Positions 1,245 to 21,594 of a DNA stretch of 21,594 nt are shown here, in pieces. The notes beneath the pieces are model-generated. The model searched no databases. It had not been told where the DNA came from and saw only the letters and a program-made list of their open reading frames with translations. The position numbers and the translations under genes are program-made. The DNA comes from Lunasporangiospora selenospora (taxonomy: Eukaryota; Mortierellomycota; Mortierellomycetes; Mortierellales; Mortierellaceae), in assembly GCA_015680635.1 (NCBI GenBank), contig JAABOA010000007.1, positions 1 to 21,594 on the forward strand, read 5' to 3'. The first letter of the stretch is position 1. Each line of letters begins with the position of its first letter.

Positions 1245-4200
1245 ATGAATGCTTCACCTTCTTCATGTGTCTCCATGCCATTCCCAATGCAGCGTCCTTC
1301 GCATCACAGCACATGGAATGCTCTTAGGATCATTGCATGTGTGCATCCATCCTTGACTCCCAAACACCAATGTTTTCATCGCGGTTGGCGTCGTCTCGCG
1401 CCCCTTGGAGACTGGTCGACTCTGAACCGACCTTTGGCCCCTTTTGCCACTAAATTTGGATCCACCTACTTTTTTCACTCAAACCCTGTCCACAGCAGCA
1501 AATCCCTTACCTCTCAAACGATCCCCCAAGTGTTTAAGGAGCCATTACTTCAAAAGGCACGGGCGGCCAAGAAGAAGCCAAAAAGTTCAGTACTGACTTT
1601 GGATGACCTCCAAAGCGTCAACCCTAAACCAGCCGTGCTCTTGGGCAGCTCTTCGCACCCACTAGTAGAGACACCAAAGGAGTGTGAATCAAGCGATACA
1701 CCTATCCTGGATACCTCTAACCCTGACCCAACAACAAAGAAGAAGACAACGCCGCTGAGGAAACAGATTATTGAGCTTGAAGCAACACATCCTGATTGCG
1801 TCCTTCTTATCCGAGTCGGGGAATTTTATGAGGTATTGCCATGATGGAGCCACATAGAAGTTGTATATCGAAAAGAAACCTTGAATTAACTGTGGAAGCG
1901 CCGCCTTTTCTCGATTGACACAGCTCTACGATCATAATGCAGTCGAATGTGGCCATCTTTTGGGCCTCAAGATCGCGACAAAAGTATTTGGCAGCGAAAG
2001 CGTTCCGTTCACCGGATTTCCTATTCGACAGTTGGATCGTCATTTAGAGACGCTTGTCGGGAAACACAGTCTCAAGGTCGCCCTTTGTGAGCAGTTCCAT
2101 GATGGGGTCCGTGGAAATAGCCGAACATTCAGAAGGTCAGTCCACCGGATTATCACCCCAGGAACACTCATCGACGAACAGTTCTTGGATCAGACGGAAA
2201 ACAACTGGCTCTTGGCTGTAGCTAGTGACAGATCAAGTCGTTTATTGGGCCTATCCTGGCTCGATCTCTCAACAGGAGATTTCTTCACTCAGGAGACAAC
2301 ATATGACAGCTTCCCCAATGACCTGGCGAGAATCCGACCGAGAGAGATTATCCTGAATTCTTACCTAAAAGACCAACCGGATCACACGATCCTACAGACG
2401 ATTCAATCAGCCGGATCATACCTAGTTAGCTATGAAGACATGAGGTCAGCAGCACAAATGGCCCTTCTCAGCAAGCATTCGATCTTGGAGGACTCGGAGA
2501 CCTTGTTTGATTTTGATCCGCAGTACCTAGAGCCTTTCACAAATCGTGAGCAATCCGCTTGTCTATCGATCCTGCGATATGTCAATCACACCCAGATGGG
2601 GAGGCGACCTGTGGTCCAGGGACCGATCGAATGGCAAGACAGCTCAATAGTGAAAATCGACAAGAATACGATTGAGGCACTAGAACTTGTGAGAACTCTA
2701 CGTGATTCATCGAGAACAGGAAGTCTTCTATATCACCTTGACAAGACAAAGACGAGGGCAGGGTCAAGATTGCTTGCTGAATGGCTCAGTACGGTCTACT
2801 GTGATTGTTCTAGAAGCTGAAAGGTCAGAGATAGATTGACCGAAAGATCCTAACCTTAGTCCCATTTTTATCCTTCTTCAGCATCACCTTTGACGAATAG
2901 CGATAAGATCAATGATCGTCTGGACATGGTGAAATTCTTAACTGAGGACAGCCACTTGAGGACTGACCTTGAAGGCTATTTAAAACGATGTCGAGATGCC
3001 CAGAGATCCATCCAGAAACTCTCACTTGGATTAACCGACCCACAGGACCTTATTTCAATCAGACTCACGCTCGAGGCCCAACAATATATCAAAGCGTGTA
3101 TGCTCAACAATATCTATCTCATGGATTCACAGGAAACTCGAGATAGAGCTGTTCCACAGGTGGCCAAGAATATAGTGACAGGATTAAAGGGCCTGGAACA
3201 TACCTGCGAATTGATTCAAAAGGTTGTTGATGACAGCATGGAGAGCAGTCAAGGATATGGATTCATTAATGAAGGGTATGTTAATGAAAAGAATGCCTGT
3301 TTGCTATGACATCACGAAGTCAGCCAAGTCTAATTGTGTGTCATTAATAGAGTAAGCCCTCATCTGAACGGTCTTCACGTCAAACTACGTGATCTTAAGC
3401 GGAAGAAGAAAGAGCTGCTTGATCAATGGACAACCCATCTCGGAGGCGCCAAGCCCTTTGAGATTAAATCCTCGTATGGATATCGCCATGTAGTAGAGCT
3501 TCGCAACACCGTGGCTGCTGAACGGCTACGCAGTCTTTTGGAGGAACAAGTTGTAGATGTATCTCATGCTGAGCAGAAGCGTACAAAGATTCGTTATCAA
3601 GTTCCCGTAAGTCCTTTTGTTGGTCCCGATGGACTGATGTATCTCTTTGAAGAGTTTATTAATCCACACAACCATACCAATTTTAATGAAGTTTATCCCT
3701 CCGTTTATTATTGAATGTTTGGCTCAACATTTTATAGACCTTCTCGCGGCTAATGGAGTCGATTGAAAGAACAGAGTCAGACATTATCCTTGAAGAGAAG
3801 AGTATTCTCCAAGCTACCCGATCCGAAGTAAGCTAGATCTGACTGAATCGGATGTGCACAGGATTTTACAAAAGATACTAAGCATAAACCGCTCTCTCTC
3901 TGTCTCATTCTCTCTTTTTTTTTCGACATCTCAGATTTTGGAAGAAAGTGCGGCAATCATTCAAAACTGTCGCTTTATTGCAGAACTGGACGTACTCCTC
4001 GCCTTTGCAAACATTACAGTCGAGCGCCATTATGTCCGCCCAGTTCTAAATCAGAGGTACTTGAGCCCATGGAGATCTCTGGTGTCTGGCCGTGCTTTAT
4101 GTAGTGTAATACATCATTTAACCACCCACCACCTGCATTGACTTTAATTCTTGATAGCTTAAAATCAGATGTAATCAACGGCCGACATCCAGTTGTTGAA

Positions 4201-5276
4201 CTTGCATTACAGTCTGAAGGTCGACATTTTATGGAAAATAGTTGTACAGTTGGAGAGAACGAACAAATATGGCTCTTGACTGGGTAATGGCACAAGTATT
4301 CAACCTGAATATTACTCTATTTACTAGCACGAATGTCTTTCTTGATCTAACATACCTCGGCTTGGTTATGAATATTGTCAATAATAGTCCAAACATGGGT
4401 GGAAAGAGTACGTTCTTACGACAGAATGCCATCATCACTATCATGGCACAGGTGGGCTGCTTTGTTCCGGCTTTTGCCGCAAATCTAGGAATTGTCGACA
4501 AAGTATTCAGTCGAGTATGTTCATCAGTCGTGGCCTATACCTAAAGTTCTTTATTTTTTTTCATCCTGGAGATTTCATGATATTAACTGCATCTTTGATT
4601 TTTTTGCTTCAGCTTGGATCGACCGATAACTTGGCAAATTCTCAGTCGACATTTATGGTTGAGATGATAGAGACAGCATGTATCCTTCAGCATGCAACTG
4701 AACGGTCACTCGTGATCATGGATGAGGTTGGCCGAGGAACGGCAACTTTGGATGGATGTGCGATCGCATATGCGACTCTCCACCATCTCTACCATATCAA
4801 CAAGTGCCGCACGTTATTTGCAACTCATTATCACGAGCTTGCAGATATGGTTGGGGCCATCTCTGGCAAATTCTCGCGAAGTCCTTCGAGAACGACGCAC
4901 TCGGCGTTACAATCCTATGAAGTGAGTGACTCTACCCAAGTAGAAGATACTTTTGTTCGTACAGGTGTCCTAAAAGCTTGGAAAGGAAAGAAGCCTCTGG
5001 AAAATGTTAAATGTTACCAGACAACTATCGAACAACAAGAGGTAAGAAGCAATGGGTCGAATATGTTGCTTGGAAAGCACAAAAACGTGTCATATCGATT
5101 GTTAATCTTGCTCCTTTGCCTGTTAGGATGGGATGTATACCTATATGCACCACGTAATTCCCGGAGTATGTCGACAGTCGCACGGAATCCATGTCGCTAA
5201 ACTAGCAGGAATGCCTCAGAGCGCAATTGATGTATCAACCAGAGTCCTTGAAGTACTCCAAGGAAAGGACTCATAA
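1245..5276 (+). CDS. MSH1: Mitochondrial DNA mismatch-repair protein of the MutS family
   Basis: Mismatch-recognising ATPase that keeps mitochondrial DNA stable. Ten exons: 1245-1832, 1924-2788, 2882-3275, 3351-3606, 3738-3827, 3935-4056, 4158-4283, 4388-4514, 4613-5041 and 5127-5276. All phases close to 1048 residues (yeast Msh1 is 959). The N-terminal 100 or so residues are rich in Ser, His and Arg with few acidic residues, as expected for a mitochondrial presequence; Met11 and Met15 are alternative starts. The mismatch-binding F-x-E motif is GEFYE (192-196), ending exactly at the first intron. The lever/clamp region contains [17 protein letters not shown]. Walker A is GPNMGGKS (814-821), Walker B/signature is [12 protein letters not shown] (from 893) and the switch is THYHE (927-931). 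A stretch of about 52 residues (936-987) interrupts the usual spacing after THYHELADM. Yeast-like MSH1 rather than plant-type: no GIY-YIG domain follows, and the stop at 5274-5276 comes soon after the LAGMP motif. Confidence 0.95.
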
Positions 5277-6409: not shown

Positions 6410-8198
6410 TCAACGGATCTGGTCTCTCTCCTGAAGATAGGACACACTATTGAACGCGTCTTGTGGTCGGTCCTTAAAGTGAACAAAGTGACCTTGCAGG
6501 GCGGCTGTGCTCACTTTTTGGTTCTCCAGAGCCTTCACAAACTGATCTGCCAACACGCTCTCGCCCTCATAAAACCGCAAGAACATCTTTCGAATCTGTG
6601 AAGGCGATGCATCCCCGACATATTCTCGAAGATCGACTCGCCCGGGTCGAATCAATGCTGGATCCAAGACCTCGACATGGTTGGTTGTCATGAAAATAAT
6701 CCGCCCCTCAGACGAGGCTACACCGTCCAACGCATTGAGCAGTCCACTGAATGTCACCATCGATTGGAAGCTATGTTTCCGTTCCGAGTAGTAAATAATC
6801 GAAAAGAGTGTTAACAATAAGGGTCCTCCCGCAGAGCAGCATCAAGGATCATGAAGTTCAATCGACAACACTTACCCCTCCTGTGTCTTATCACGTTTGG
6901 CAAATGCAGCATCAATATCCTCAAGCAACATGATACTTCGATCAGGAAGGTTTGTCAAGAGATGGTTCAATCTATCGTTGGTCAACCCCCGCTCACTGAG
7001 GTTCAGAATACAGATATTATACTCTAGTTCACCCGCCAGTGCCTGAATAAAGCTGGTCTTTCCGCTTCCAGGAGGTCCATAGAGTAAGTATCCACGGCGA
7101 TAAGGAATTCCTATTGAAAAATGATCATCATCAATTAGACAAAGCCGAGGTGCTTGAATCCTTTTCGGTGGCTCAATCTTTTCCTGCGACCAAGGGAAGT
7201 CTCATACCTCGGTCGGAATACCACTTTTCGTTTTTGATAAACTCTTGCACATCCTGTACTATCCTCTCGCCAATCCCATTGTCCAGGATGACTGACGAGA
7301 GCAGTCTTCTCTTCCTTGGCGGACCAAATGGCCTCCATTCAGGACCCCAGCTTGTGTAGATCACTGTCTTTCCTTCCTGACTTGCCAAAGCCATTTTTTG
7401 TGCCTCTTTAAGTAGCTCTGTAAAGACGTGACGGTCGCGTGAAAGTGTCGTCAGGGTCACTGTCTCCCATGGTGAACCTGTCGAGAGATCCATCATTTTT
7501 GCATCCCGTGTCCGTTCAACCTGGATCCAGGCTCCTTGGCATCGGATCAAATGTTTTCCATTGCCAGGAACCAGGTTGAAGCGGGTCGAGACGGATCCAT
7601 TGTCATGCTGCTTGAATTCCGTCTGGACGGCGAGGAACTGAGATCGACGGCCAACCTTACTAGCCAACTGATCCATCCAGCGCTTGATGATCCCGCTGCT
7701 GTTGAGAGATGGGCCGGTGGATGCAGAAGAAGTCAATGAAGCCACCGCTCTTGACTGAGACGACATCCAGTGAAGGAACCACAGATATGATTTGTCCTTG
7801 CTAGGGATCTCGAGCGTGACGAGCAACTGTCGACGCATAAGACCGGCACCGGAAACCGCACCCTTACGCAGGATGGTCAACCCTGCACCAAGGGCCATTA
7901 GACCAAAACCTGCTGAAAAGTAGGGGTTAGAGTCCATGATTGACTGGAAAACTCCTGGAGTCTTTTGCTCAGCTTCAGGAGTAATGGGTGTTGATGAGTT
8001 TGATTCTATCGGTGAGGATGGTGCCTTGGTGCTATTCGTTGTAGAGGACAGTGGTGGTTCATGACGGCCTGTGGGAGGACGAGTATTGATGTAGATAATT
8101 TGAGGTAGAGGGTGTGTCGATGACTCCTGGGTTGGTAAAGGGATAGAGTGTTGTTGACTCGAGCTTTCGCCCAAAGCCTGAATGTTGATGGATGCCAT
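6410..8198 (-). CDS. BCS1: Mitochondrial inner-membrane AAA ATPase, Rieske protein translocase of complex III
   Basis: BCS1 moves the folded Rieske Fe-S protein across the inner membrane at the last step of cytochrome bc1 assembly. Exons on the minus strand are 8198-7208, 7110-6876 and 6770-6410 (introns 97 and 105 bp); 528 residues. The first 85 or so residues are Ser/Thr/Pro-rich. The single transmembrane segment is [20 protein letters not shown] (91-110), followed by a basic RKG patch that is part of the internal import signal. The BCS1-specific domain contains [22 protein letters not shown] and [11 protein letters not shown]. The AAA domain has [10 protein letters not shown] (341-350), [10 protein letters not shown] (391-400), sensor MTTNH and arginine-finger region LIRPGRVD. 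It ends with a short basic tail (QERDQIR). The N-terminus before the membrane segment is about 40 residues longer than in yeast Bcs1 (456 residues). All key ATPase residues are present. Confidence 0.96.
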
Positions 8199-8704: not shown

Positions 8705-11379
8705 TTAGACATGGTGGATATCAAACTTATCCTTGCGGTCAGCCTCACTCGAGTCTGTGTCCGATCCAGAGAGATGGAGATCGGCGGGAACGTCTCTCTC
8801 CCAAACCTGGTGGCGAATCAAGACTGCATCGACAGCATCACGAATGGTCAAATGGACCAATCCCTCTTCCTTCAAGAATGGGCTTGAGCCTTGGATAGAA
8901 AGAGCGCCAACACCGGTAGCACCTGGAGCAGGACGAGCAGCAGGCTTGATATCAAGCGAGTCGCGATCCTGATCGGCCTCGTTTCTGATGACGTTGGGGG
9001 TCTCCTCAATGACTTCAACTTTGTTAAGGGCGATAGGGGCGACAGGGCGTGTAATACCAGACAACTCCAGAACGTTGAGCACGTTAGCCTGGATACCGAC
9101 AAAGTGAACCTCAAAGAATGTCGAGGCGTAGTCAGTCACACCCGCATAGTCTCTGAGAAGCTCACGAAGATCGAAAAGTCCCTGGAGACCGGTCGAGTCG
9201 ACATTGTTGACAGCAGAAAAGTCAAAGATGACAGCACGCAACTTGGGAAGGTCGTCGTCGGTGATGTTCGAGTCATTTCCATGGGCGGCCTTGCGCAGGT
9301 TGCGGATGTGGACATCCATGTCATCAGACCAGAGCCTCTCCGCGGTCTCCTTAACACGTCCTCCAAATCGAGTGAACTTGTAGACTTCGTCGAGAACCCA
9401 AGACTTGAAGGCATCAGCATTGGGGAAGGTAGTGGACTCCTCGATACGGAAAACGAGGACACCGTGAGGAGCAGGAACGATATCAAGATTACGGCTGAAG
9501 GAAGAGTCGATAAACACATCGGGACGATTCTTGAGCTGGTGGAGGACACGGAAGTTGGGGCGAGCAATTCTGAAGAGGAGGACAATGAGCGAGAAACCAA
9601 CACCGGCAGCAATACCAGTCTCAACCGAGACAAAGATAGTGACCCAAAGAGCGACCTGAGACGAGAGGAAATCCCACAAGTTGATCTTGAAGAACTGGAT
9701 AAAGACGCTGGGAGGGCTGATCAAAGTAGCAACGGCAACCATAATGACGGCGGACAGGGCAGCATCAGGGATGTAGTAGAAGCTATTATCCAGAAGAGGT
9801 ATACGAACAGAAGCAACACGTGTACAAGAGTTAGCAAAAACTTGTGTGTTTGTGTGTGTGAAATATGGTCTTGTGTAATTTTCAAACAACGACACAAAAT
9901 CGCGGCCCGATATCGCAGACCCAGAACCAATCCAGCAGCATCGAACCCTCATTCGAACCGAGGTTGTGTCCTCACCACAATCACGATTTCCCTTCTCTCG
10001 GTCCAATCAACCGTACGCCCACATTCCCACACGACTGGAGTCACAAGCAAAAGAAAACTTACGCTGGAGTCAAAAAGTAAAGAGCCAATAGGACCAAAGC
10101 ACCAGTGACAAATCCGGCAAAGGGAGACTTGACACCACACTGGAACTTGACAGCGGAGCGCGAGAATGAACCAGTAACAGTGTAGGCACCAAAGAACGAG
10201 GCAGTGACATTGGCAGCACCAAGGGCAAGAAGCTCCTGGTTGGTATCGATGGCATAGCGGTTCTTGCGAGCAAAGGCCTTGGCAATAGCAATGTGTTCCA
10301 GAATGGTAGCGAGAGCAATGGCGAAGAGCTTGGGCACAATCTCGGAGAAGATCTCAGAGCTGACATGAGGAACCTGTGGTGGGGGCAAACCCGAAGGGAC
10401 AGTCTTCAAGATGGAGAGTCTGGGAGTCGTCAAGTCCTTGTTGATCGCAAACGAGGCAACAGTTGCCAAGACAGTAACAATGAAGAAACGAGAGATCTTG
10501 ACCAACTGGACAGAGAACTTGCCACGTCCCCAACGATCAACAGCCAATCCGATAGAGATCAACATGAAGAAGCCAACAAGACCGAAAACAAGATCCAACC
10601 ACGACAAAGTCTTGATAGCCTTGAACATGTTGATGATGATGTCGTAGACTGGGGCACGGTTGTTGATACCGGGCACACCCAACCACTTTGGAATCTGTTG
10701 GATAACGATAGTTGCTGCAGCGCCGGAAGTGTATCCGACCAAGACTGTTGTTGGGAAAAAATCGAGGATAATACCGAGACGAAGGACACCGAGGATCAAG
10801 GTCAGAGCACCGACACACATGCAAGAGATAGCGGCAACTTCAGGGGCGGTCATACGCCCCGAGAGTTGAGAAACAAGCTCGCCAGTAATCAAAGAGATAA
10901 CGGCAGTTGGTCCGATAGTCAAGTCCTTGGAAGTTCCCATAAAGCAATAAAAGATAGCACCAATGTAGGCAGAATACAAGCCGTGCTGGACAGGAAGACC
11001 AGCAATCTTTGCGTAAGACATTCCCTGAGGAACGACAATCAAACCAACAGTGATACCGGCAATGGTATCCCTGAGGGCCCAAGTGCGGTTGTACTTTGGC
11101 AGCCTAATTCGGGATGAAGATAAGCAGAAGTAGGTCGAATGAACTTGTTAGGATCATTCTGTGTATATTGGTGAAAAGCAGTGGGGGGGGGGTCGAGTAT
11201 CTGTCATGTAAACCACAAGCCTTGGATGCTGCCAGAAGAGGGAGTTGGAGGTTGGGAGTTGATTATTACCATTTGATGATGGGAAAGCGCTCAGTAACGT
11301 AACGGGGGGCGTTGGAGGGGAAAGCCTTGAGCCACGAGACGACATTGCGTCCGTACTGCTTCAGCTCTCGATCAGCCAT
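8705..11379 (-). CDS. SulP-family sulfate permease with C-terminal STAS domain
   Basis: Plasma-membrane sulfate uptake protein (SUL1/SUL2/CYS14 type), first step of sulfate assimilation. Exons on the minus strand are 11379-11270, 11103-10063 and 9782-8705, with introns of 166 and 280 bp; 742 residues. The N-terminus is a short cytosolic helix (MADRELKQYGRNVV). The SulP signature region is PQGMSYAKIAGLPVQHGLYS, after the split Trp37 and LPKYNRTWALRDTIAG. Many hydrophobic segments follow, with the conserved TGSFSRSAV motif and FYYIPDAALSAVI at the third exon. The STAS domain covers about 485-710 and contains FDFSAVNNVDSTGLQ (571-585, phosphorylation-type loop D-S-T-G). A linker of about 40 residues with acidic patches (SDDMDVH, DSNITDDD) is inserted in STAS, as is common in eukaryotic members. 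The tail is acidic (SGSDTDSSEAD). Codon use is strongly biased, so long antisense frames stay open. Anions other than sulfate cannot be excluded. Confidence 0.94.
9844..9860. repeat. Interrupted (GT)n in the second intron of the sulfate permease gene
   Basis: GTGTGTTTGTGTGTGTG on the plus strand, which is a CA-rich tract on the gene strand. It lies within intron 2 (9783-10062), well upstream of the acceptor. Confidence 0.8.
11182..11191. repeat. G10 homopolymer in the first intron of the sulfate permease gene
   Basis: Ten consecutive G on the plus strand (C10 on the gene strand), inside intron 1 (11104-11269). It is a possible length-variable site. Confidence 0.9.
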
Positions 11380-17360: not shown

Positions 17361-20337
17361 TTAGTGGAAATACTTTCGGACAAGAGATGGGACATAACCC
17401 TCCTTCTTGTAAAAGGTCACAATTTTCTGCACCTTGGACGCAACAACGTCAGGAACAAGTCCAAAGTACTTGTAAACATCTTTGTAAGGGCCAGAGGCAC
17501 CAAAAGTATCAATTCCAATGGACTCGTGCGCATAGTGACTCCATCCACGAGTGGTCAGAGCTTCAACGCTGACGACAGGAATGGCATCAACAAGGACTGA
17601 AGCCCTGTATTCTTGCGTTTGTTCGTCAAACAGAGTGACTGATGGGAAAGAGACGATACGTGCCTATTCACAACAGTAGTTGCATAAATAAATAAAATGA
17701 AATAAAATAGAAGAGCGCAGTGGTGTCAGGTCAACACTATTTTCAATGAACTTATCCATTGTAATAATGATTTTAATTGGTCTTACCTTGATTCCCTGGT
17801 CCTTGAGAATCTTGGCTGCATCGACACAGAGAGAAACCTCGGAACCTGTTCCCAACAAGGTCACATCAGCACCATCAACCTCTTGTAGGACATAGCCTCC
17901 CTTCAAGGTCTTCTCAACGGAGGAGCCCTCAAGCTGGGGAAGATCTTGACGTGTCAATGAGAGAACACTGGGCCGTTTCTTGGCCGAGATGGCAAAAAGG
18001 TAAGCACCCGAGGTCTCATTACCATCGGCAGGACGCAAGTCTACCAAGTTGGGTGTAGCCCTGACGAGGGCCATAGTCTCGATAGGCTGGTGCGTAGGTC
18101 CATCCTCTCCAAGCCCAATGGAGTCGTGGGTCATAACATAAATGACACGATGGCCCGACAGTGCAGATAAACGCACAGCACCTAATGATCAGGTAAATGG
18201 CAAACCATCCGTTAGGGACTTGAGCTGGGAATGTTTCTAATCGGATGCTAGTCATAAGTCAATGTCAAATGCCGTATATTACCCCAAGCATAAGTGATAA
18301 AGTTAAGGAAAGTGGCTCCAACAGGAATTAAACCGCCATATGCGTCTAGTCCGTTCATGATAGCGCTCATTCCATGCTCGCGAACACCATATCGGATGTA
18401 TCGCCCAGCAAGATTTCCAGTGTTGGAACCCTCGGGTTGGAAGTCCACAGCGCCCTTCCAACGAGTTAGATTTGAACCTGTCAAATCGGCTGAACCAACA
18501 ATCAGCTCAGGTAGCACTTCAGCAATCTTGTTCAGGACAACCTCAGAATCCTTTCGAGTAGCAATTGGCTTGTCTGCAGGGGTGTACTGAGGAAGAGCTT
18601 TCGCCCAGCCTTCGGGCAGTTCACAGTTCAAGCGGCGATGGAGTTCAGCCCCAAGATCGGGGTGCTGAGCCTTGTATCGATCAAAAAGAGCATCCCATTC
18701 TTGATTGAGTTGAGCTCCCTTGCTAGCCTTTGCATGGTAGTGGTCATACACCGTTTGTGGGACGACAAACTTTTCCTCTGGATTGAAGCCGAAGGCCTTC
18801 TTGAGCTGAACAATATCATCGGCCTTAAGAGGAGAGCCGTGGACCTTTTCAGTGCCTTGGTTCAAGGATCCAAAGCCGATCGTAGTAAAGATCTTGATCA
18901 ATGTAGGCTTGTCCGTAACCTTCTTGGCTTCCTCAATGGCATGGGCAATGCTCTCAAGGTCACTGTTGCCATCTTTGACAACTAGCACGTGCCACCCATA
19001 AGCTTCGAAGCGCTTGGCAACATCCTCTGTGAAAGAGACTTCAGTATCACCATCAATCGAGATGTGGTTATCATCGTACAGTGCGATCAGCTTGCCTAAC
19101 TGCAAGTGTCTATTTAATTAAGGAAGAAAAAAACCCCTCCCGTTGAATGTTAGACCTCCCAAGACAAAATTTTCACCTTTGCAACAGTGCGCATTAATTT
19201 GGACTTACCCGGCCAGCGAGGCTGCCTCACTGGCTACACCTTCTTGCAAGCAACCATCACCAAGGATCGTGAAGGTATAGTTGCTGAATAATTCGTAGCC
19301 TGGCTTATTGAAGGTAGCAGCCATATGCGCCTCACCAATAGCCAAGCCAACAGCATTGGAAAACCCTTGACCAAGAGGGCCCTGTGATCCAGGTTCCAAG
19401 GACAATTGCCCGTTGACAGATAGTCAGAAACGAACGAAACTACACTGAGAGAGATATATACCCAGACTCTAGAGATGGCATGAATAAGCCAGTGATCATT
19501 ACCGTTGTAACTTCGATACCAACCGTAAGGTGTGACTCGGGATGGCCAGGAGTTCTAGATGGATTGTGATCAAGTCCAAGAGAAGCGTCAATATTAATTG
19601 TTGTGATTTCGACATGCCTCGGACTAATATGTTCTGCAATTGGAACTGATGTGTATAGCAGCGACATCCGGGTCACCAAAACGATGTCTCGTAGAAGATA
19701 TCTCGCCTCCTGGAGACAAGCTGAGAGTATTAAAGCAATGCAATGGGGAATGAACATACTTGCTGTTAAGCTGTCGGAAATTCTTCAAGTCATCCATCGT
19801 GAGAGGAGACCCGGTAAGATGGAGCATAATATACTGAAGGGCACAGGCGTGCCCATTCGACAAGACGAACCGATCCCGATTAGCCTATTTATGTTGTTGA
19901 CCCATGGGAAAACAGTTGAGCATTTTCTACCGACTGATACCTAGCGCCTGGGAGCTACCACACAGCAAACTGAAGCCAGCGGCCTCGGCTTCAATACCAC
20001 GAATCAACTCAGTAATAGTAGATAGTCAACTGTGCATTACCCAGCAAGGGTTCTTGGGGTTGTAGTTCATGTATCGTGAGAAAAGCAGATGGGCCATAGG
20101 AGCACACCCCATTGGGGCGCCTAAAAGTAAGAGACGACCCGGCCCGATCCAGCAAACAGCGAAACAGTCAGAAGGGAGTGTGAGAAAAAAAAATCATTTT
20201 GGAAACAGTCGAGCAACTCGCGTTTGAGCAGAGTGATTCATACCAGGATGGCCCGAGTTGCTCTTGAATACCGTGTCAGCAGCAAGAACACGGATAGTGT
20301 TGATAGCGAGGGTGTCCTCGTCAGTGAATCTGGTCAT
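17361..20337 (-). CDS. TKL1: Transketolase (thiamine diphosphate enzyme of the pentose phosphate pathway)
   Basis: Transfers two-carbon units between ketose and aldose phosphates in the cytosolic non-oxidative pentose phosphate pathway. Eight exons on the minus strand: 20337-20244, 20120-20041, 19884-19760, 19554-19503, 19381-19209, 19109-18283, 18181-17787 and 17663-17361; introns are 99 to 205 bp. The product is 682 residues (yeast Tkl1 is 680). Visible motifs: SNSGHPG (26-32, with the catalytic-region His); [30 protein letters not shown] (118-127); the diphosphate-binding GDG (158-160) ending at YDDN (186-189); the pyrimidine-domain [22 protein letters not shown] (470-483, the transketolase signature); and RPADGNE. 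The C-terminal domain ends with [12 protein letters not shown]. No key residue is missing. The start gives the usual short N-terminus ([21 protein letters not shown]). Divergent from glutathione reductase. Confidence 0.97.
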
Positions 20338-20705: not shown

Positions 20706-20803
20706 CTGGCCAGGACTTGTCTCCATTTTTCTTTTTCTCGTAACCATTGTCATCAGCCCCATTCTTTGATCGCTTGATCCTCCCCAACTCCTTCGCTACC
20801 TGA

Positions 20804-20920
20804 TTCCCGTCGCCTGGTTTGAAGTTCATCTCGCCTAGTCGACACCGGATCGTACATTCCTTCGCCAACCTGACGTCCCCAACCCGCCGCCTCCTTCAGC
20901 TCGCACAATCCTTTGGCAAG
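20804..20920 (+). other. In-frame, AUG-less 5' extension of glutathione reductase (possible mitochondrial presequence)
   Basis: Upstream of the ATG the reading frame stays open for 39 codons back to a TGA at 20801. The translated stretch contains six Arg/Lys and no Asp/Glu (for example SPSRHRIVHSF and SPTRRLLQLAQSFGK), the composition of a mitochondrial targeting helix. In-frame near-cognate starts are TTG at 20819 (G at -3), CTG at 20870 and ACG at 20873. Translation is inferred, not shown. Confidence 0.35.
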
Positions 20921-21594
20921 ATGCCTCCAACTGGAACGATCTATGACTACCTCGTTATCGGAGGTGGTAGCGGTGGTAAAGTTGGCTGCGCAACTATTCA
21001 CGCGCGATTGAATACCAAGTTGTTTGGAAGATTATGTACTTACCTTCTCCCCTCGCGGTGCCTTTAGGTCTTGCTTCCGCCCGCCGCGCCGCCACGTATG
21101 GCGCCAAGGTTGGCCTGATCGAAGGCAGTGGCCGTCTCGGAGGTACCTGTGTCCCCAAGAAAGTCATGTGGAACACTGGTAAGCATGGCTTGTTTTTACT
21201 CCTCCTTCCCAGCTGAATCAGGAATCGCTTCCCACGCTAACAGTTGAACTCTTCTACTCTCCACTCGGAACAAAAGCTTCTATTGCTGAGGCCCTCCACG
21301 ACGCGAAAGAGTATGGATTCCCCGATGTTGGCCCTGCCACTTTTGACTGGAATACTCTCAAGCACAAGAGGGATGCCTACATTAAGCGTTTGAATGGTAT
21401 CTATGAACGCAACCTCGAGAAGGACTCGGTTGAGTACATCTCTGGCTGGGCCTCTTTGCTTGACAAGAACACTGTCACGCTAGGCAATGGGGAAGAAATC
21501 CACGCAAAGAAGATTTTGATTGCTGTTGGTGGTCGCCCCATTATCCCCAAGATTCCTGGAGCAGAGTTGGGCATTGATAGCGACGGCTTTTTCG
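20921..21594 (+). CDS. GLR1: Glutathione reductase, partial (runs off right edge), with atypical redox motif
   Basis: NADPH-dependent flavoenzyme family that regenerates GSH from GSSG. Exons seen are 20921-20975, 21068-21178 and 21277-21594 (open at the edge); introns are 92 and 98 bp; 161 codons are visible out of an expected 460-480. The FAD-binding motif is VIGGGSGG (12-19), then [17 protein letters not shown] and GRLGGTC (40-46). The expected redox motif GGTCVNVGCVPKK is here GGTCVPKK: five residues, including one of the two active-site cysteines, are absent at 21154-21162, with no nearby splice site that could supply them. The following sequence is well conserved ([65 protein letters not shown]). 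The family call is secure; catalytic competence is doubtful unless the gap is a sequencing or assembly error. Confidence 0.9.

Follow-up and report, generated by a model that had tools for sequence, protein, structure and literature searches.

The glutathione reductase gene (GLR1) at the end of the 21,594-nt window of Lunasporangiospora selenospora DNA analysed here lacks five codons of its active site, one of the two catalytic cysteines among them, so that the CxxxxC redox disulfide expected of a glutathione-disulfide reductase is not encoded as assembled. The five missing codons most likely reflect either an error of assembly or a mutation that inactivated the gene recently, and not a new kind of enzyme. 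We consider it slightly likelier that the 15 bases were dropped from the draft assembly or its consensus (probability about 0.5) than that their absence is a true feature of the genome.

Read directly from the window, positions 21139-21162 (+) are GGA GGT ACC TGT GTC CCC AAG AAA, which translates as GGTCVPKK; the deletion junction lies somewhere inside TGTGTC at 21148-21153 (+). The first-pass annotation, which had placed the lesion at 21145..21172, found the site itself, with a start six bases late and an end ten bases late. Six donor/acceptor combinations were compared for GLR1, and a single one, corresponding to the three exons in Table 1, was open throughout. The joined exons form an open frame across all 161 residues that precede a run of Ns. 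In the 27-row alignment the N-terminus of one homologue, P0022, begins six columns later than exon 1. Directly after the window, contig C7 consists of N at 21595-24998 (3,404 bases); the run begins ~420 bases beyond the end coordinate given earlier and hides the remainder of GLR1. The NADPH domain and the C-terminal HPTSAEE, which contains the catalytic His-Glu of glutathione reductase, would fall within it.

Table 1. Positions of GLR1 features and of the neighbouring transketolase gene in the window
Feature	Position	Strand	Basis
Transketolase gene, divergent neighbour of GLR1	17361..20337 (ends approximate)	-	Open reading frames
GLR1 exon 1 (FAD-binding GxGxxG)	20921..20975	+	Aligns with N-termini of 26 homologues
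GLR1 intron 1 (GTAAAG...TTTAG)	20976..21067	+	Window sequence and frame test
GLR1 exon 2, carries the lesion	21068..21178	+	Window sequence, frame, alignment
GGTCVPKK, five codons of the family GGTCVNVGCVPKK absent	21139..21162	+	Sequence, alignment, motif count
GLR1 intron 2 (GTAAGC...AAAAG)	21179..21276	+	Window sequence and frame test
GLR1 exon 3	21277..21594	+	Open up to window end

Elsewhere in the window, the pieces of a MutS-family gene, covering MutS domains I, II, III and V, lie at 1915-5197 (+), with a 199-codon frame upstream of them at 1245-1844. They are followed by a BCS1-like mitochondrial AAA chaperone with BCS1_N, AAA and BCS1 lid domains at 6413-8198 (-) and a sulfate permease with a STAS domain at 8708-11042 (-), antisense to which run open frames of 405 and 274 codons.

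The product is a glutathione reductase, as the first-pass annotation had called it. The best NCBIfam match of its 161 residues is TIGR01421 (glutathione-disulfide reductase, 6.8e-59), which scores it ahead of TGR, lipoamide dehydrogenase and MerA models; the score of 200.2 bits falls short of the cut-off of 556 set for full-length proteins, which is no surprise with 161 of ~467 residues present. The solved structures that match best are likewise glutathione reductases (top 6.3e-46), and the FAD motif VIGGGSGG is unchanged across 27 of 27 aligned rows. The surroundings of the lesion are conserved, as had been claimed: the window protein shares the FAD motif with its relatives Entomortierella parvispora (P0001) and Podila epigama (P0002), and is up to 92% identical to them over 161 residues (or 89% by BLASTP, which counts the gap). 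In these Mortierellaceae enzymes CVNVGC is intact, whereas the window copy is five residues short there and is interrupted by the N run.

Compared with 25 of 26 aligned homologues (the 26th being P0025), the window protein is short of exactly five residues inside CVNVGC and the frame is kept, which bears out the earlier reading of a 15-nt in-frame loss. The comparison with related species that had been proposed gave the same gap for 24 of the 25 Mortierellaceae glutathione reductases aligned, and all four structure alignments inspected open a gap of five residues at GGTCVPKK. Naming which five residues went missing is arbitrary, with a Cys-Val pair flanking both sides. The active site is indeed near-invariant in the family: GG.[CS]....C[VI]P is present in 119 of the best 120 of 7,996 homologue matches, P0025 being the exception, and CxxxxC[VIL]P in 236 of 239 proteins when these are pooled with the best 120 of 1,770 matches in a second list of shorter proteins. 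None of the best 120 of 7,996 homologues has the five-residue gap of the window protein. Two short glutathione reductase-like proteins, P0191 and P0236, carry VVNGGC and GLGNGGR in place of CVNVGC; these are substitutions of one or both cysteines, without a gap. The GLR1 model of Gryganskiella cystojenkinii, P0025, is likewise without the CxxxxC stretch in the database protein. It differs from the window copy in that 21 residues are absent, ending where the window's exon 2/3 junction falls; to judge from this position the absence looks like a gene-model effect, a second lesion being the other possibility. The accessible portions of the literature on glutathione reductase and Mortierellaceae genomes make no mention of an active-site deletion of GLR1.

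We used the adjacent transketolase gene as a reference for both linkage and rate of change. Its 504 joined residues are 100% identical to P0240 from L. selenospora. GLR1 and the transketolase of the same taxon are linked for 8 of 25 listed Mortierellaceae GLR1 proteins (Podila epigama, Mortierella alpina P0005, Podila minutissima, Linnemannia zychae, AM989, AD094, Lobosporangium transversale and Dissophora ornata), where linkage means equal contig sizes, taken as the same contig, and not observed adjacency. The remaining 17 of 25 are without such a transketolase match among the rows listed, as is Entomortierella parvispora. The two genes thus seem linked across Mortierellaceae, as far as contig sizes tell. 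This arrangement, being that of the relatives, argues for orthology, and the window gene looks like an ordinary GLR1 orthologue.

The end branch of the window GLR1 is 0.093 compared with a tree median of 0.038, a 2.4-fold excess, in a tree of 25 of the 27 rows that excludes the misshapen models P0024 and P0025; no other end branch in its supported set of 11 rows is as long. The transketolase of the same organism has an end branch of 0.16 against a median of 0.068, also ~2.4-fold, in a tree of 24 rows chosen from 120 listed in a family with paralogues, so that not all rows are strict orthologues. Because both ratios are ~2.4, the lineage is by this measure divergent, and GLR1 is not relaxed beyond the neighbouring transketolase. 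Apart from the gap, neither the invariant columns nor the branch length gave a sign of decay in the 161 residues; one substitution, F to L at column 121, sits at a column otherwise invariant in 27 rows. With this single change and a branch ratio equal to that of transketolase, the view that the gene is no old pseudogene holds.

We also looked for a second GLR1, using the window protein, the DNA of exon 2 and the full-length relative P0001 as queries. None was found in the 8.2 Mb searched, which is far from complete. There, exon 2 DNA matched itself once, the exact CxNxGC DNA pattern had no match (a motif interrupted by an intron would escape), and P0001 detected neither the NADPH domain nor the C-terminal part of GLR1 elsewhere. 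Proteasome matches occur at 2 loci and Cpn60/TCP1 matches at 5 in the 8.2 Mb, where ~14 proteasome and ~9 Cpn60/TCP1 genes are expected; we therefore judge the searched DNA incomplete. No lipoamide dehydrogenase gene was seen in the 8.2 Mb either, its model fitting GLR1 best and three other contigs weakly, and the thioredoxin reductase model matches one contig only, weakly; the cut-offs of both models were built for whole proteins, and with introns, scores below them prove little. Since lipoamide dehydrogenase is missing too, the absence of a second GLR1 is weak evidence. The lookup proposed in the first-pass annotation for the whole genome returned no intact copy in these 8.2 Mb; one could lie outside them. 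A near-identical GLR1 protein is absent among the best 120 of 7,996 and the best 120 of 1,770 matches, which fits a real assembly gap at the N run. Each taxon appears once among the 25 listed Mortierellaceae GLR1 proteins, save M. alpina with two, in a database clustered at 90% identity that could conceal near-identical copies.

The way in which the data could have lost the bases is suggested by the family motif, where the Cys-Val codons would be doubled five codons apart (CV-NVG-CV). A join, a gap fill or a template slip across two similar 6-mers would remove exactly 15 bases and keep the frame, and we infer that the fungus itself has the bases and that only the data lost them. The 3,404-base N run shortly downstream, be it an assembly gap or withheld sequence, counts toward such a fault (N of either kind is present in 2 of the 9 loci listed), as does the normal-looking constraint on the rest of the 161 residues, where a null allele of some age should have left more traces. 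According to the accessible part of one survey, genera of the subphylum, including Lunasporangiospora, are represented by reference genomes of low as well as high quality, and low-coverage sequencing served the classification of these genera (PMC10386755). Control genes without a comparable fault count against an error in the data. Among 68 aligned proteins there is no indel private to the transketolase P0240, and 4 of 5 Cpn60/TCP1 loci, partial and with 1,705 residues joined, show gaps of at most 4 residues relative to the best solved structure, setting aside eight intron residues retained in one join; the comparison omits the fifth Cpn60/TCP1 locus and two proteasome loci. Small in-frame deletions appear uncommon here, although a sample set against distant relatives cannot measure a rare fault. 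A six-base repeat is also too short to confuse ordinary k-mer assembly, which again counts against a data fault. The same clean controls fit a genuine 15-base in-frame deletion in the strain, produced by slippage or microhomology between the Cys-Val codon pairs and inactivating the enzyme. We rate this as a strong contender at somewhat under an even chance; the recent allele and the assembly error named in the first-pass annotation are both live options. Electrons in glutathione reductase pass from NADPH to FAD, from the reduced flavin to the disulfide and from the resulting dithiol to GSSG; a protein with a single cysteine cannot carry out the last two transfers. A null protein may still fold and bind FAD and NADPH, but it could not form the redox disulfide or reduce glutathione disulfide, and thioredoxin would need to take over the glutathione disulfide load. 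A deletion in the genome is favoured by a contiguous sequence with the frame kept, by a loss of just the 15 bases expected between Cys-Val pairs, by the long GLR1 branch within its 11-row set and by the lack of a second GLR1 in the 8.2 Mb searched; it is disfavoured by the absence of any further mark of decay, by a transketolase that matches the long branch and by the adjoining N run, which casts doubt on the local sequence quality. The amino acids fix 4 of the 6 bases of the Cys-Val repeat (TG.GT.). From a codon use of TGT for 7 of 21 Cys and GTC for 59 of 147 Val (~1,870 codons), the lost copy would also have read TGTGTC with a probability of ~0.33 x 0.40 = 0.13. Slippage between repeats is a plausible origin, the second copy of the repeat lying outside view: of the proposed slippage between TGT-GTC repeats, the Cys-Val on both sides stands, while the slippage itself is conjectural and an exact six-base repeat has a chance of ~13%.

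Other readings accept the lesion and give the gene a function, or remove the lesion from the transcript. By analogy with known relatives, a retained one-cysteine flavoenzyme might, in place of reducing glutathione disulfide, pass electrons from NADPH through FAD to another acceptor, be it quinones, peroxide or another nucleotide. The deletion is in frame and the remainder conserved, and Irc15p, LpdA and STH, without one or both cysteines, keep flavin activity (PMC6296175, from the accessible part of the paper). We nevertheless think such an enzyme very unlikely, given a transketolase linkage like that of the relatives' genes, evolution not faster than in the transketolase neighbour and a gap found in none of the best 120 of 7,996 homologues; moreover, the loss of five residues beside the flavin would probably be harsher than a substitution. 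Were the deletion real and kept, the product might be a single-cysteine NADPH flavoprotein with another acceptor, glutathione being reduced by thioredoxin, an outcome to which we give long odds. A paralogue retained for another role, as the first-pass annotation had offered, was considered and finds no support, in view of the transketolase linkage, a branch ratio of 2.4 that equals the neighbour's and one listed GLR1 per taxon (90% clusters; M. alpina excepted). A paralogue of the Irc15/STH/LpdA kind would be a separate gene alongside a normal orthologue, and the incomplete 8.2 Mb yielded no second copy; it would also form its own line of descent with faster change, whereas the ratio found is that of transketolase. 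Least probable of all is a gene-model effect, in which another exon or an unusual splice brings in the missing residues. GLR1 does have introns, which is a general fact only, and the motif would need to break into a reading frame that is contiguous. A transcript in which another exon supplies the second cysteine had been suggested, and no exon with the motif was found in the six frames of 20801-21594; the one partial match to a piece of it, VGC in intron 1, is unusable, as it appears that no splicing could put it inside the contiguous exon 2.

What the site means depends on where the loss occurred. If the bases are missing in the data only, this is a draft-genome fault at a site that automatic checks would miss, the frame staying open. 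If the fungus itself lacks them, this is a naturally occurring null for glutathione reductase in a family of oil-producing fungi, where one could ask whether thioredoxin is enough by itself. Enzyme chemistry is concerned only in the unlikely case of a retained one-cysteine protein.

Disulfide reductase relatives without a complete cysteine pair are known as distinct, divergent genes. Irc15p of yeast, soluble transhydrogenase (STH) and LpdA of Mycobacterium tuberculosis share this trait with the window GLR1, and in the accessible part of their description their activities are quinone and dye reduction or transhydrogenation, Irc15p and LpdA, with an incomplete pair, reducing quinones and no disulfide (PMC6296175). 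Unlike them, the window GLR1 is a near-normal orthologue with a short deletion.
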